The notes under the pieces are model-generated. The model was not told the DNA's origin and made no database searches. It saw nothing but the letters and a program-made list of their open reading frames with translations. Made by a program: the position numbers and the translations under genes. From an uncultured Anaerolineales bacterium (lineage in GTDB: Bacteria; Chloroflexota; Anaerolineae; Anaerolineales; UBA4823), in NCBI GenBank assembly GCA_937928795.1, contig CALFWB010000066.1:1-64000 (forward strand): a DNA stretch of 64,000 bases. Reading direction: 5' to 3'. Shown one piece after another: positions 809 to 45,900 of the stretch (positions are counted from its first letter, which is position 1; every line of letters starts with the position of its first letter).

Positions 809-1837
809 ATGACTTACAAGTGCGTTGTCATTACCGAGTTTGGTGGGCCAGAAGTCCTCAAGATGGTCGAGGAGACTGAATTACCAGAGCCAAAACCCGG
901 CGAGGTACGAGTCAAGGTGTTGGTCACGAGTGCAGCCTTCACTGACGTGATGATTCGCAAAGGAAAGTATCCCGACGTGAAGGATAAGCCGCCTTTCTCC
1001 CCGGGCTATGATATGGTCGGCGTGGTAGACAAGTTGGGTGAAGGCAGAAGCCGTTTTGAGGTGGGGCAGCGAGTAGCAGACCTCACAGTCATTGGTGCAT
1101 ATTCGGAATACCTCTGTATACCGGAAATCCGTTTAACGCATATGCCCGAGAGTCTCGACTTAGCGGAAGCAGTCAGCCTCGTACTTTCGTATGTCACTGC
1201 ATATCAAATGCTCCATCGGGTGGCAAAAGTGAAGCAAGGTCAGCGCATCTTGATACATGGTGCAGGAGGGGCTGTTGGCACAGCAGTGCTGCAATTAGGT
1301 TAGCTATTGGATTTGGAAATATACGGCACGGCTTCCAAGTCCAAACATGACTTGCTCAAACGACTGGGCGCAACGCCCATTGATTACAAAGGTGAAGATT
1401 TCGTGGAGCGCATCCGTAGCCTAACAGGTGATGGTGTTGACGCAGTTTTTGACCCAATAGGAGGTGAGAATTTCAAGCGGTCATTTCGTGCATTGCGGCG
1501 CGGTGGGAAACTGGTGGCGTATGGCTTCTACAATGCAGTACAGGGAAGGGGTGGCAGCATCCCGTTGGATTTCGTGCGGCTTCAGCTATGGCACTTCTTG
1601 CCGAATGGACGGTCAACAGCGTTCTACTCGATTGGTGCATTGCGGCAGAAAAAACCCGATTGGTTTTCAGAGGACTTGACCAAGTTGTTTGATTTGTTAA
1701 CACAGAACAAAATCAAGCCCATCATTGCGGCGCGTATGCCACTGGCGGAGGCCAAGCGTGCCCATGAACTTATCGAACAAGCAGAGGTACAGGGCAAGAT
1801 TGTGCTAACTGTTGCCGAAACGACCGTCCAAAAGTAG
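809..1837 (+). pseudogene. Zinc-type alcohol dehydrogenase / quinone oxidoreductase family, interrupted by one in-frame TAG
   Basis: ORFs 809-1303 and 1307-1837 share a frame and form one MDR protein; the stop is at 1301-1303 (AVLQLG*LLDLEIYGTASKSKH). Confidence 0.8.
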
Positions 1838-1885
1838 GCGGGCGAACACCTGTCCCACATTTGTTACTGCACAAGGAGTTGGCCC

Positions 1886-2537
1886 ATGACCAAGTCACAA
1901 TCTCGTCCGGCGATGAGCCGCTGTGACTTTCTTAAAGTCGCCGACCGTGGCAGCAACGGCTGTCACATGTCCCGGTTTGGGGTATCTCGCCACCCGCGCA
2001 CCGAGTGTAGATACCCCTGAGTTTGCTTTTGGAGAGGAGGCAAACGTGAATAGGCGAATTCTCATTACCTATGCCACTCGCGCTGGGTCTACCGCCGAGG
2101 TGGCTGCTGCCATAGGCGAAACCCTCAGCGCCCGTGGCTACGTCGTGGATGTCAAACCGGTCAAGCAGAAGCCTGATCTCACCGGCTATGCCGCCATCGT
2201 AATGGGCAGCGCCATCCGCATGGGCAATTGGTTGCCCGAGGCTGTGGATTTTGTCAAGCGCAACCAGTCCGCACTGAATCAGGTGCCTGTTGCGCTCTTT
2301 ACTGTACACATGCTCAACATCGGTGATGATGAGACCAGTCGGACTGCCCGTCTGGCCTACTTGAACGCCGTACGCCCATTGTTGAATAACGCAGAAGAAG
2401 TCTACTTTGAGGGCAAGATGGACTTCTCGCGCCTGTCCTTTCTTGACCGGATGATTGCCCGCATGGTCGGTGCGGTAGAGGCCGACCGCCGAGATTGGGA
2501 CAGAATCCGCGGCTGGGTTCCGGCAGCACTGGGTTAA
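1886..2537 (+). pseudogene. Flavodoxin-domain protein; frameshifted Tat-like leader, flavodoxin domain intact
   Basis: AAGGAG RBS at 1873 then ATG 1886 gives MTKSQSRPAMSRCDFLKVA, then a frameshift near 1943 into TVAATAVTCPGLGYLATR...; ILITYATRAGSTAEVAAAIGETL flavodoxin motif. GTG at 2046 with upstream GAGGAGG could restart a cytosolic form. Confidence 0.7.
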
Positions 2538-2547
2538 GGGAGGATAG

Positions 2548-3408
2548 ATGCACACAAGTCCAGCGCTCAAATGGCTTATCCCCTTGATTTTCATTCTGAT
2601 GCTGATCGCCGCTCTGTCTGGTCTGTGGCCCGCCGAGGGGACACCCTACCCGCTCACGACCTTTCGCGGCGAGGAAGTGACGATCAACGCGCGTGGTTTG
2701 TATTATCGGGATACGGTTAGTTCGGCGGCTCAAATGCAGGCTAACGACTTGGTCATGCTGGTGCTCGGCCTGCCGCTGTTGGCGATTTCCTTCTGGCTGA
2801 CGCAGCGCGGCTCGCTGCGTGGGCAACTATTGCTGGCAGGCACGCTGGGCTTCATACTCTATACCTACATCACGATGTGTTTCGGCGCAGCCTACAACCA
2901 GTTGTTCCTGGTCTATGTAGCGTTGTTCAGCCTAAGCCTGTTCGCCTTCCTGCTGGTAATGATGTCTTTTGATGTCCCCTCTCTGCCGGCGCGTTTTTCC
3001 GGCAGACTACCGCGGGGCTGGATTGCCGTATTGCTCTTTTTCGCGGCTGGGTTCTTGCTCCTGGCTTGGCTGGGGCGCATCGCCGCGACTTTCACTCCAG
3101 GTGCAGTTCCTGCGCTGGAGAACACTACCAGTATGTTCATCCAGGCCATGGATCTAGGCATCATCGTTCCCGTCTGCGTGCTTTCGGGTATCCTGCTGCT
3201 ACGCCGAAGCCTTTGGGGTTACCTGCTGGCCTCGGTGGGGATGATGAAATTCCTGACATTGGGCATCGCCGTCAGCGTGATGGGGTTGAACATGGCGCGA
3301 GTCGGAGTGCCGGTCAGTGCGGAAGAGTTGGTAATCTTCCCTACCATCGCCATCACCAATATCTTGATGACCGTGGTGCTGCTCAAGAACATCACTTCAG
3401 CAGAGTAG
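2548..3408 (+). CDS. Hypothetical integral membrane protein
   Basis: Intact 286-aa ORF with many hydrophobic segments; lies inside cassette 1. Confidence 0.7.
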   Translation: MHTSPALKWLIPLIFILMLIAALSGLWPAEGTPYPLTTFRGEEVTINARGLYYRDTVSSAAQMQANDLVMLVLGLPLLAISFWLTQRGSLRGQLLLAGTLGFILYTYITMCFGAAYNQLFLVYVALFSLSLFAFLLVMMSFDVPSLPARFSGRLPRGWIAVLLFFAAGFLLLAWLGRIAATFTPGAVPALENTTSMFIQAMDLGIIVPVCVLSGILLLRRSLWGYLLASVGMMKFLTLGIAVSVMGLNMARVGVPVSAEELVIFPTIAITNILMTVVLLKNITSAE

Positions 3409-18615: not shown

Positions 18616-20877
18616 TCAAATTTCACGACTCATTGCGTCCATAACCGCAACAGCGGCGATATTGACAATATTGCGCACCTCTTCACCGGTTTGGAGCACG
18701 TGAATCGGGGCGCCGATTCCCAATAAAATCGGGCCAATGGCTTGAGCGTTGCCGAGGCGAGCCAACAGTTTATAAGCAATGTTGGCGGACTCAAGGGAGG
18801 GAAAGACAAGCACATTGGCATCCGAGACGCGGCTGAAGGGGTAGCGTTCTTGGATAATTTCTGGACTAACGGCTGTATCGGCTTGCATCTCACCATCAAC
18901 CAATAGGTCTGGTCGCCGTTGGCGGATTAGCTCGACAGCCGTCTTGACTTTGAGCGAAAGCGGGTGAATGGTGCTGCCAAAATTGGAGAAAGAAAGCAAA
19001 GCCACCCGTGGTTCGATGCCTAATTGTTGGGCAAAATCGGCAGCGAGGCAGGCAATCTCGGCTAAATCCTCTGCAGAAGGATCGATATTAACAGTCGCAT
19101 CGGTGAACAAATACGTGCGGTCATTAACGATCATAATATAAACCCCAGCCGCGCGATGGGTGCCTGCTTTGGTGTGATGAATCTGAAGCGCTGGGCGAAT
19201 CACATCGGGATAGTCATAGGTCAACCCGGAGACAAAGGCATCGGCATCCCCCATTTTGACCATCATCGGGCCAAAGACATTAGGGTCTAAGATGCGATGG
19301 CGAGCATCTTTGAGCGTGATCCCTTTGCGTTGGCGCAGTTGATAGAAAGCTTCGGCGTATTCTTCATATCGTTCATAATGAATTGGTTCGACAACACGTG
19401 GAGTGCAACTCAACCCAAGATCGCCTAGTTTTTGACAGATGACCTCCGGTCGACCGATTAAGATCGGCTCCCCGATCTTTTCTTCCATGATCTGATAGGC
19501 GGCGCGAATGATTTTGGGTTCTTCACCCTCAGCGAAACAAATCCGCATCTGTCTGGGGGCTGATTTTGCCTTGTTCAGAATGTAGTAGCGGACTTGTTCT
19601 CCCATACCGAGCCGAAAGGTGAGTTGTTGGCGATAGTCTTCAATGTCGATCACTTTGCGGGCAACGCCGCTCTCGATAGCAGCTTTGGCGACAGCCGGCG
19701 CTTCCCACAGCAAAACTCGTGGGTCGAGCGGTTTGGGGATAATGTAATCGGGCCCGAATTTTAGACTTTCGAGGTTATAGGCGCGCAGGACGCTATCCGG
19801 AACATCCTCTTTGGCTAAAGCTGCCAAGGCATGACTAGCTGCCACTTTCATCTCGTCATTAATTGTCTTGGCGCGCACGTCCAATGCGCCGCGAAAGATA
19901 AAGGGAAAGCCTAGGACGTTGTTGATTTGGTTAGGATAATCCGAGCGGCCGGTAGCAACAATCGCATCGGGACGGGCTTCTTTTGCTAGCTCATAGCGAA
20001 TTTCCGGATCGGGGTTTGACATGGCGAAGATCAGCGGGCGTTCAGCCATGGTTTTCACCATTTCAGGGGTCAGAATATCCTTCACCGATAACCCATAGAA
20101 AACATCGGACTCCCGCACTGCATCGGCGAGGGTGCGCGCATCGGTTTCTGCAGCAAAGCGTTCTTTGTAGGGATTCATCCCCTCTTGGCGGCCTTTGTAA
20201 ATCACACCCCGTGTATCCACCAGCAGGATGTTCTCGCGCTTTGCACCCAGTTTGACCATCAATTCTGCGCAGGAGATGGCGGATGCTCCTGCTCCGGAAA
20301 CAACGATTTTCACTTGGTCGATTTGTTTCCCCACCAATTCCAAACCATTCAGAAGAGCAGCTCCAGAGATGATGGCTGTGCCATGTTGATCGTCATGAAA
20401 GACGGGGATATCTAGCAGCGACCTTAAGGTTTCTTCAATGTAAAAACATTCTGGCGCTTTGATGTCTTCTAAGTTGATACCCCCAAAGGAGGGGGCTATC
20501 GCACGTGCAACCTGAATGACCACATCTGGATCATGGCTATCCACCTCGATGTCGATAGCATCGACATCGGCGAAGCGTTTGAACAGAACAGCTTTGCCTT
20601 CCATGACGGGTTTGGCTGCCAGCGCGCCCCGATCGCCTAATCCCAAAATAGCCGTGCCATTGGTTATAACGGCTACGAGATTGCCTTTTGCCGTATATTC
20701 GTAGCTGGCATTCGGGTCTTGTTCGATTTCAAGAACTGGGATAGCAACGCCCGGAGTGTAGGCTAAAGACAAATCTCTTTGGGTGAGCATCGGTTTGGTC
20801 GGAATAATAGAAATTTTTCCAGCCTTGCCTTGTAACCGATGGTATTCCAAGGCTTCTTCGCGGGTAATAGTAGCCAT
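18616..20877 (-). CDS. maeB: NADP-dependent malic enzyme with C-terminal phosphotransacetylase-like domain
   Basis: [45 protein letters not shown]-terminal PTA-like domain; start set to [10 protein letters not shown] after AAGGAGAAAG. Confidence 0.92.
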
Positions 20878-20922
20878 AAACTTTCTCCTTAGATTTTTTT
20901 CGGTACAGTGATTTAGCCTATT

Positions 20923-21000
20923 GTGTGCACTCAAAAGTTGTTGGCAACATTGCTTTGTAGGACAACTCATTGAGTTGTCCTACAACTTTTGCGTGGACAC
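20923..21000 (+). mobile_element. 78-bp palindromic MITE-like element with 9-bp TSD
   Basis: Imperfect TIRs GTGTGCACTCAAAAGTTG / GTGTCCACGCAAAAGTTG; central palindrome TTGTAGGACAACTCA-T-TGAGTTGTCCTACAA; TAGCCTATT at 20914-20922 and 21001-21009. Confidence 0.85.
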
Positions 21001-21240
21001 TAGCCTATTATACCTATAAGTAGGGCTGCGTTCCTATGCTATAATTTCTGATGATTAACCACAATCCAAAGTGGCAGCGCTAAAGCCGCTTACTTATGCA
21101 CGGGAGCCTTTAAGCTGGCGCTCCGAGTCAGATAAATCCAACTCCTAAGTCCGGGCTCAAAATTGGGCTGCGCCAAGATGTGGACAATCACCGATATAAT
21201 ATTGACCGGCGAAGGCAAAGGATGATGAACTTATAAGACC

Positions 21241-37448: not shown

Positions 37449-37801
37449 GTTTCTCTACACTCCTTCTTCTCAAAAATGCTCTCCCGCAGGCACCACCCAA
37501 TTCGTTCAACGCACTGTACCGATAAGCTACCCATTTTTGTACCCAAGTCTACCGCCTACGGGAGAGCTACTGAAAAGTATTGTACCATATGTATATGTTT
37601 TGTCAAGTTAATATCCATTAATTGTATGGATTTTCGACAGGTTGCTATTAGCTTCACCTCGAGGTAACAAAACAAAAAGGGTGGAGAACTCCGCTCTTGC
37701 GGCGGGAAAGGGTATCTGGAGGAAAAAGCCTTTCGAGCAGGCTAAATCCAGTAGAAGGGGACCAGGAGATTAGAAGATTGAAAAGCCCAAGCCTAATGAG
37801 T

Positions 37802-37879
37802 GTATCCACGCAAAAGTTGTAGGACAACTCATTGAGTTGTCCTTCAAAGCAATGTTGCCAACAACTTTTGAGTGCACAC
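37802..37879 (-). mobile_element. Third copy of the 78-bp MITE-like element, opposite orientation to 20923-21000
   Basis: GTATCCACGCAAAAGTTGTAGGACAACTCATTGAGTTGTCCTTCAAAGCAATGTTGCCAACAACTTTTGAGTGCACAC; imperfect flanking repeat TAATGAGTG / TAATCAGTG. Confidence 0.82.
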
Positions 37880-38000
37880 TAATCAGTGCTTCAGTTTGCG
37901 ACCAAACCAGAAGGGTTTATAATTCCCTCTGCCTTCTCAATCTTGAAGTCCGAATCGATTAACATTCTTTTCCTTGCTTGACAGCTTGAAGGATGAAAAA

Positions 38001-39260
38001 ATGGATTTTCTGCGCATCCAAAATCACATCGAAACAACTTTAGCCAATCGCTTGCCTCACTATTTGGACCTTCTGCGCCAAATGGTTGAGATCAACAGCT
38101 TTACTGCCAATGGACAAGGAGTCGATCGGTTAGGAAAACTGACGGCTGAAATTTTTGAACAACGCGGTTTTCGGTCCGAGTTTATCCCTTCAGAGCGAGC
38201 TGGTTTTGGGCATCATCTGTTTCTTTATCGTGATGCGTCATCCGGCGAATCGGCAGTACAGAGACCTGCTTTGGCGTTGATCTCTCATTTAGATACAGTC
38301 TATTCACCTGAAGAGCAAGAAAAACACCAATTCTATTGGCGTTTAGAAGGGCGGCGGGCTTATGGGCCTGGTTGTGTGGACATCAAGGGTGGAACTGTGA
38401 TGATCCTAATGGTTTTAGACGCTCTGCGAGAAGCCTTTCCGCAGGATTTTGAGAACGCCCAATGGATTGTGGCGCTCAATGCCAGCGAAGAAGTCCTTTC
38501 CGCTGATTTCAGCGGTTTCTGCCTCCAGCGGTTTCCGCAGCATACGCGGGCTTGTTTAGTCTTTGAGGCAGGGAACATACAAGATAAGACCTTCAAGCTG
38601 GTTGTAGCGCGCAAAGGTCGCGCTTATTTTCATGTAGATGTCGAAGGACGTTCTGCCCATTCGGGGAACAACCATGGGGGAGGGGCAAACGCAATTGTTC
38701 AGTTGGCTCATACTACCCTCCGACTGGCTTCTATGACCGACTATGGACGTCATTTGACGGTGAACGTCGGGGTTGTGCGCGGCGGGACGGTAGTCAATCG
38801 AGTGCCCCACTTCGCCCATGCTGAAGTCGAAATGAGGGCTTTCTCGCCAACGGTCTTCGCTGAAGCCATCCAGCAGATTCTTAGTCTGCAAAAAGAACCG
38901 CAGGTTTACAGTCAGGACGGCTTCGCTTGTAAGGTGAACGTGCGATTGGTGGAGCAATCCTCTCCCTGGCCAGAAAACGAATCGACCCAGCAACTATTTT
39001 CCGTTTGGCATGAGGTAGCTGAACGGCTAGGGATGAAACTTGAGGGTGAAAAGCGAGGAGGACTGAGCGATGGCAATTATTTCTGGGAGCATTTCCCAAC
39101 GTTGGATGGCTTAGGTCCGGCGGGAAACAACGCCCATTGTTCCGAAAGAGACCCTGCCTCCGGCAAAGAACAAGAATATGTGTCATTGCCGTCCTTTGTC
39201 CCAAAGGCTTTGCTCAATACGTTGGCGATCCATAAAATTTTGAAGGAAGGGCCATCATGA
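38001..39260 (+). CDS. M20 family metallopeptidase
   Basis: LALISHLDTVYSPEEQ, YGPGCVDIKGGTVM, GLSDGNYF. Confidence 0.88.
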   Translation: MDFLRIQNHIETTLANRLPHYLDLLRQMVEINSFTANGQGVDRLGKLTAEIFEQRGFRSEFIPSERAGFGHHLFLYRDASSGESAVQRPALALISHLDTVYSPEEQEKHQFYWRLEGRRAYGPGCVDIKGGTVMILMVLDALREAFPQDFENAQWIVALNASEEVLSADFSGFCLQRFPQHTRACLVFEAGNIQDKTFKLVVARKGRAYFHVDVEGRSAHSGNNHGGGANAIVQLAHTTLRLASMTDYGRHLTVNVGVVRGGTVVNRVPHFAHAEVEMRAFSPTVFAEAIQQILSLQKEPQVYSQDGFACKVNVRLVEQSSPWPENESTQQLFSVWHEVAERLGMKLEGEKRGGLSDGNYFWEHFPTLDGLGPAGNNAHCSERDPASGKEQEYVSLPSFVPKALLNTLAIHKILKEGPS

Positions 39261-45673: not shown

Positions 45674-45900
45674 TTTCTCCTACACCAAATTGTACAAAAC
45701 AGGGTGGATTTTCTATGATTATACTCCGAAGCGATGATTTTTTTGCCTGCCTCTAGGGTTCATCTAGGGTTTTCCAATCATCTAATCTCTTTTGCCTTCT
45801 TCTTGCGTCTTTGGTGTGCTTGAACGGTTCCCTCACTCCTCTCCCAGAGGGAGAGGGGAGACCCTAGCGCCGCACTGAGCCTGACGAAGTGCTGGTAGGT

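Follow-up and report, generated by a model that had tools for sequence, protein, structure and literature searches.

What is the short palindromic element that occurs in two full copies and one truncated copy within a 64,000-nucleotide stretch of DNA (the window) from an uncultured bacterium of the Anaerolineales, what moves it, and does it choose where it inserts? From the sequence alone it had been described as a 78-bp MITE-like palindrome within a perfect 9-bp target duplication, having imperfect TIRs of about 18 bp and a 31-bp central palindrome. On re-reading, the coordinates of the element, its central palindrome and the TAGCCTATT repeat on both flanks were all recovered (Table 1). The TIRs (GTGTGCACTCAAAAGTTGT and GTGTCCACGCAAAAGTTGT) can be drawn at 19 bp, of which 17 positions match (89%), and there is a 3′-terminal C at either end of the element. 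It is non-coding. The centre base of the palindrome is T in 46 of 71 copies and A in 24.

The element lies close to a gene for malic enzyme/phosphotransacetylase (PTA), whose best relatives indicate that the source genome belongs to the Anaerolineales (Chloroflexota). The 784-aa frame listed for this gene (18616-20970, minus strand) has its start codon within the MITE. The alignment of relatives begins at residue 32, so that translation probably begins at the ATG at 20877, which would place the MITE in the 5′ region of the gene. The region upstream could not be aligned with that of two close relatives, the nearest having 95% protein identity.

Table 1. MITE copies in the 64-kb window, with their target site duplications (TSD) and neighbouring promoter elements.
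Feature	Positions	Strand	Remarks
MITE copy cut by contig start	1..54	-	assembly break inside repeat
Left target site duplication TAGCCTATT, copy 1	20914..20922	.	perfect 9-bp match to 21001-21009
78-bp MITE, full copy (copy 1)	20923..21000	+	same sequence in 21 other sampled copies
31-bp central palindrome	20955..20985	.	centre base 20970
Right target site duplication TAGCCTATT, copy 1	21001..21009	.	
Outward extended -10 TGCTATAAT	21037..21045	+	copy 1; stricter scan makes no promoter call
TSD of copy 2, TAATGAGT	37794..37801	.	one mismatch vs 37880-37887
78-bp MITE, copy 2	37802..37879	-	3 substitutions
TSD of copy 2, TAATCAGT	37880..37887	.	
Outward promoter TTGCGA-N16-TATAAT	37896..37923	+	-35 after 16 bases from copy 2 left end

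The element is abundant in its own genome. A search of the source genome (an incomplete 3.29-Mb MAG of 128 contigs) with the TIR pattern, allowing up to two mismatches, gave 136 forward and 129 reverse matches, whereas its reversed control gave 1 and 0; the copy number is hence about 130. Among 72 copies with both flanks available, 22 carry exactly the query sequence, and most of the others differ from it by 1-4 bases. The 78-mer has no match in five congeners and 55 further relatives. The exact TIR pattern returned nothing useful from other genome contigs, plasmids and viral contigs; its sole viral match falls within an ORF and looks fortuitous. The MITE is real and recently mobile, and the ~130 copies are best explained by a recent burst in one species. 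The 91 copies scored below (the 72 and a later set of 19) are mainly those that the search listed first, and so are biased towards well-conserved copies.

Target duplications and empty sites show that these copies have moved. Perfect duplications flank 42 of the 72 copies (9 bp long in 22 cases, 8 bp in 19 and 10 bp in one), where 0.6 are expected when the flanks are re-paired; the later set contributes 6 perfect duplications in 19 copies and 7 more that are imperfect. Five copies lie inside dispersed repeats whose element-free paralogues contain one undivided target. One such paralogue is within the window at 45765-45860. Both this segment and that at 87-141 come from older families of dispersed intergenic repeats, which provide the MITE with its empty sites. 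In congeners the regions syntenic to two MITE sites are free of the element, with divergence too high for proof at the level of single bases, and no congener site could be resolved to that level. When the flanks of sampled copies were joined there was no clear interrupted gene, and the long frames that cross junctions appear to begin past the junction. The sequence-only reading had proposed a genome-wide copy search and a comparison of empty sites, and had looked to missing duplications and missing single-copy targets as the outcome that would speak against a MITE. Duplications and single targets were both found, and the MITE interpretation stands: the element is short, non-coding and intergenic, with TIRs, 8- or 9-bp duplications, many near-identical copies and single-target empty paralogous sites. 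As a separate observation, a congener (G004:C140:11726-12185) contains a tandem array of ~93-bp units that resembles an 80-bp repeat of the source genome (L075 17004-17084).

Two other copies had been noted in the window. The second full copy does lie in the opposite orientation, and its duplication is imperfect as described, but an extent of 8 bp with a single mismatch is the better reading, since the ninth G on the left is part of the element. The partial copy at the start is truncated by the contig end, the window and contig C66 having the same first base. Contigs C7 and C29 likewise end inside a MITE behind the same ~90-bp flank, indicating that the assembly breaks at the repeat. To judge from this shared flank, the MITE at these three ends is carried within a larger duplicated repeat.

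Does the element choose its target? The question was framed with the published target rule of the ISKra4 group (PMC3942029) already known. Promoters were scored as consensus matches to TTGACA and TATAAT with a spacer of 16-18 (at least 9/12 matches). The first 72 copies gave a sharp peak of outward-directed promoters, with the -35 element starting 15-17 bases outside the element, while equally intergenic windows 31-90 bp away gave near-zero counts. In the 19-copy hold-out set a promoter is present at the expected spacing in 9, where control windows predict ~0.6. When the 91 copies are taken together, an outward sigma-70-type promoter with its -35 element at 13-18 bp is present at 49 of 182 ends; shuffles give 1.3 on average and 6 at most. 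The end facing the promoter is the left in 35 cases and the right in 14 (binomial p=0.004). In about half of the copies no promoter can be recognised at this spacing.

The two full copies in the window are consistent with this spacing, as far as can be judged from consensus matches. The putative promoter beside copy 2 precedes the gene of an M20 peptidase (37974-39260). In copy 1 the TATAAT begins 39 bases beyond the right end, which is the position of the genome-wide TATAAT peak, and the -35 element is poor (TAAGTA, 21017-21022).

These properties are those of a known group of transposons. According to Guerillot et al. (2014, PMC3942029), p-MULT elements generate repeats of 8 or 9 bp and have IRs of 18-39 bp that terminate in C. 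Some ISKra4-group members are reported there to insert on the upstream side of sigma-A promoters, at a distance of 13-17 bp, and to be flanked by promoters at both ends if the complementarity of their IRs is 83-100%. The MITE shares with the ISKra4 group (NF033572) the length (~19 bp), terminal C and complementarity of its repeats, the 8/9-bp duplication, the promoter spacing, the presence of promoters on both sides, and a TIR that is also found at transposase genes (below). It differs in its length of 78 bp, its ~130 copies and its GTGT ends, those of most relatives being GGGT. With no transposase gene and no coding capacity, it is a derivative rather than an IS of the ISKra4 group.

How widespread are such ends? 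The motif G[TG]GTGCAC..AAAAGTTGT is found in other genomes of the order, either singly or in pairs, and several of the pairs delimit other small elements with 8-9-bp duplications. In these genomes 16 of 61 ends of the TIR type lie 13-18 bp from a promoter, against 0.7 from control windows, and they include the G016 end that bears an ISKra4 gene. An unbiased search of 101 genomes with the ISKra4 transposase profile placed the motif directly outside an ISKra4 gene at the upstream end in G016, and at the downstream end in G030, G062 and G086, where it lies 28-45 bp beyond the ISKra4 homology. Against these four genomes the background is 2 matches in 372 kb; several of the TIR/transposase junctions are situated at contig edges. 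At least seven genomes have in common a conserved left end, GGGTGCACTAAAAAGTTGT..GAGCC..CCTGTTA..AACAGGAGGCTC..ATG, and in one of them (G119, L158) it precedes a remnant encoding an ISKra4-like protein fragment (NF033572, E=6.5e-4). The RNA of this left end can fold with the AGGAGG ribosome site paired. A subterminal inverted repeat is retained at the ISKra4-type left ends of L085, L159, L158 and, in the source genome, L071; by pairing the AGGAGG it is perhaps a guard against transcription from outside.

No gene in the source genome, an incomplete MAG, matches the ISKra4 transposase model. Candidate remnants of an autonomous element there are two short ends only, C38:8868 and C28:1-79, and the 47-aa reading frame behind the former has no family match. 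What the MITE shares with these and all other ISKra4-type ends seen is the ~19-bp TIR alone. An autonomous ISKra4 partner would be predicted to have the ends GTGTGCACTCAAAAGTTGT or GGGTGCAC...

Two other families were considered as partners and rejected. A transposase of the IS1182 family beside the TIR in L096 and L108 marks an insertion into the TIR, with its own ends and the duplication CAACTTTTG; in L108 this element occupies 1500-3334 (G301:C62). The junction in L094 (G039) resembles that of L108 in another family, so that this IS may target ISKra4-type TIRs. As for IS256, the source genome has no transposase with MITE ends; there is a lone N-terminal fragment of 104-115 aa (L076, G000:C69:6718-7008), near another MITE copy.

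That IS256 fragment could be taken to point elsewhere. Duplications of 8-9 bp are produced by several IS families, and the MITE might belong to one of these (IS256, ISLre2, IS1 or IS4-type), its closeness to promoters being a by-product of survival between genes. We regard this as distinctly improbable. Against it stand the sharp promoter peak at 15-16 bp, with counts close to zero in equally intergenic windows at a distance of 31-90 bp, and the match of the TIR to ISKra4 ends. Insertions of IS256, like those of Mycoplasma ICEs, are reported to be random, and ISLre2 is reported mostly from Firmicutes (PMC3942029). Searches of the source genome for DDE_Tnp_1 (PF01609) and UPF0236 (PF06782) gave no match, the latter being a weak test as the control genomes were silent too.

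A location upstream of promoters would also suit a regulatory function, and it is conceivable that this is a REP-like repeat, terminator, RNA hairpin or regulator-binding site kept there by selection. A single strand of the element folds far more strongly than shuffled sequences (z about -6), and there is one terminator-like call within it. Yet the duplications and empty sites show transposition, the element is absent from congeners, and it matches no Rfam family. Nor is pairing maintained. A first impression of compensatory changes in the hairpin was refuted by counting: across copies the arms of the palindrome have 26 one-sided changes and a single two-sided one. These changes fit drift, and a conserved role for the central hairpin, as RNA or DNA, is not supported. 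Selection for function is accordingly a very unlikely origin of the family. Even harder to credit is an artefact of assembly or binning, in which repeats from another organism had entered the MAG; several of its 128 contigs do end in the element, but full copies lie inside long contigs beside ordinary genes, with distinct flanks and their own duplications.

We therefore return to a non-autonomous MITE that owes its mobility to an ISKra4-type transposase acting in trans, with insertion ~16 bp upstream of sigma-A promoters, a mechanism that we hold with considerable confidence. A transposase of the ISKra4 group (prokaryotic Mutator-like, p-MULT 4) would bind both TIRs in trans and cut the DNA immediately upstream of the promoter with a stagger of 8 or 9 bp, giving rise to the target duplication. 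The promoter complex would probably guide the enzyme, as in the proposal by Guerillot et al. that the transposase contacts the RNA polymerase initiation complex (PMC3942029), and it is the left TIR that faces the promoter in ~70% of cases. As the -35 element most often follows after 15-16 bases, the duplicated target would occupy approximately -51 to -60, leaving the core promoter intact. This would make many insertions tolerable and so account for 130 intergenic copies.

Insertion upstream of sigma-A promoters is a property also of TnGBS and ISLre2 (p-MULT 3), whose oriented insertions lie 15-17 bp away (PMC3942029); these differ from the MITE in being found mainly in Firmicutes and in having a different transposase. 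Correia, Chunjie and ERIC elements are similarly short, palindromic, multicopy, intergenic and non-coding, but are noted for promoters or IHF sites of their own (PMC10969869), whereas the MITE sits at a fixed distance from existing promoters. REP and GTAG repeats are short, palindromic and intergenic too; REPs, however, are 20-40-bp palindromes (PMC3733652), while the MITE has TIRs, a clear 8/9-bp duplication and precise empty sites. In the literature searched, which was covered in part, we found no description of a bacterial MITE that targets promoters.

Targeting to the upstream side of promoters is thus familiar from ISKra4-type transposons and is seen here in a miniature element. For the ISKra4 group it had previously been inferred from ISs, and the MITE repeats the signal across a family of ~130 copies. 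That a non-autonomous element gives the same signal indicates that the target rule is separable from the cargo of the transposase gene, and suggests that the ends suffice. There is an outside chance that the insertions are not neutral, the ~130 elements replacing the UP-element region and insulating or retuning promoters, so that one burst would have rewired a sizeable share of them. Insertion that spares the promoter would explain how the genome bears a high insertion load without clear gene loss. The copies point directly to a set of candidate promoters for an uncultured lineage of Chloroflexota, and the MITE makes the question of how the transposase locates promoters a testable one.
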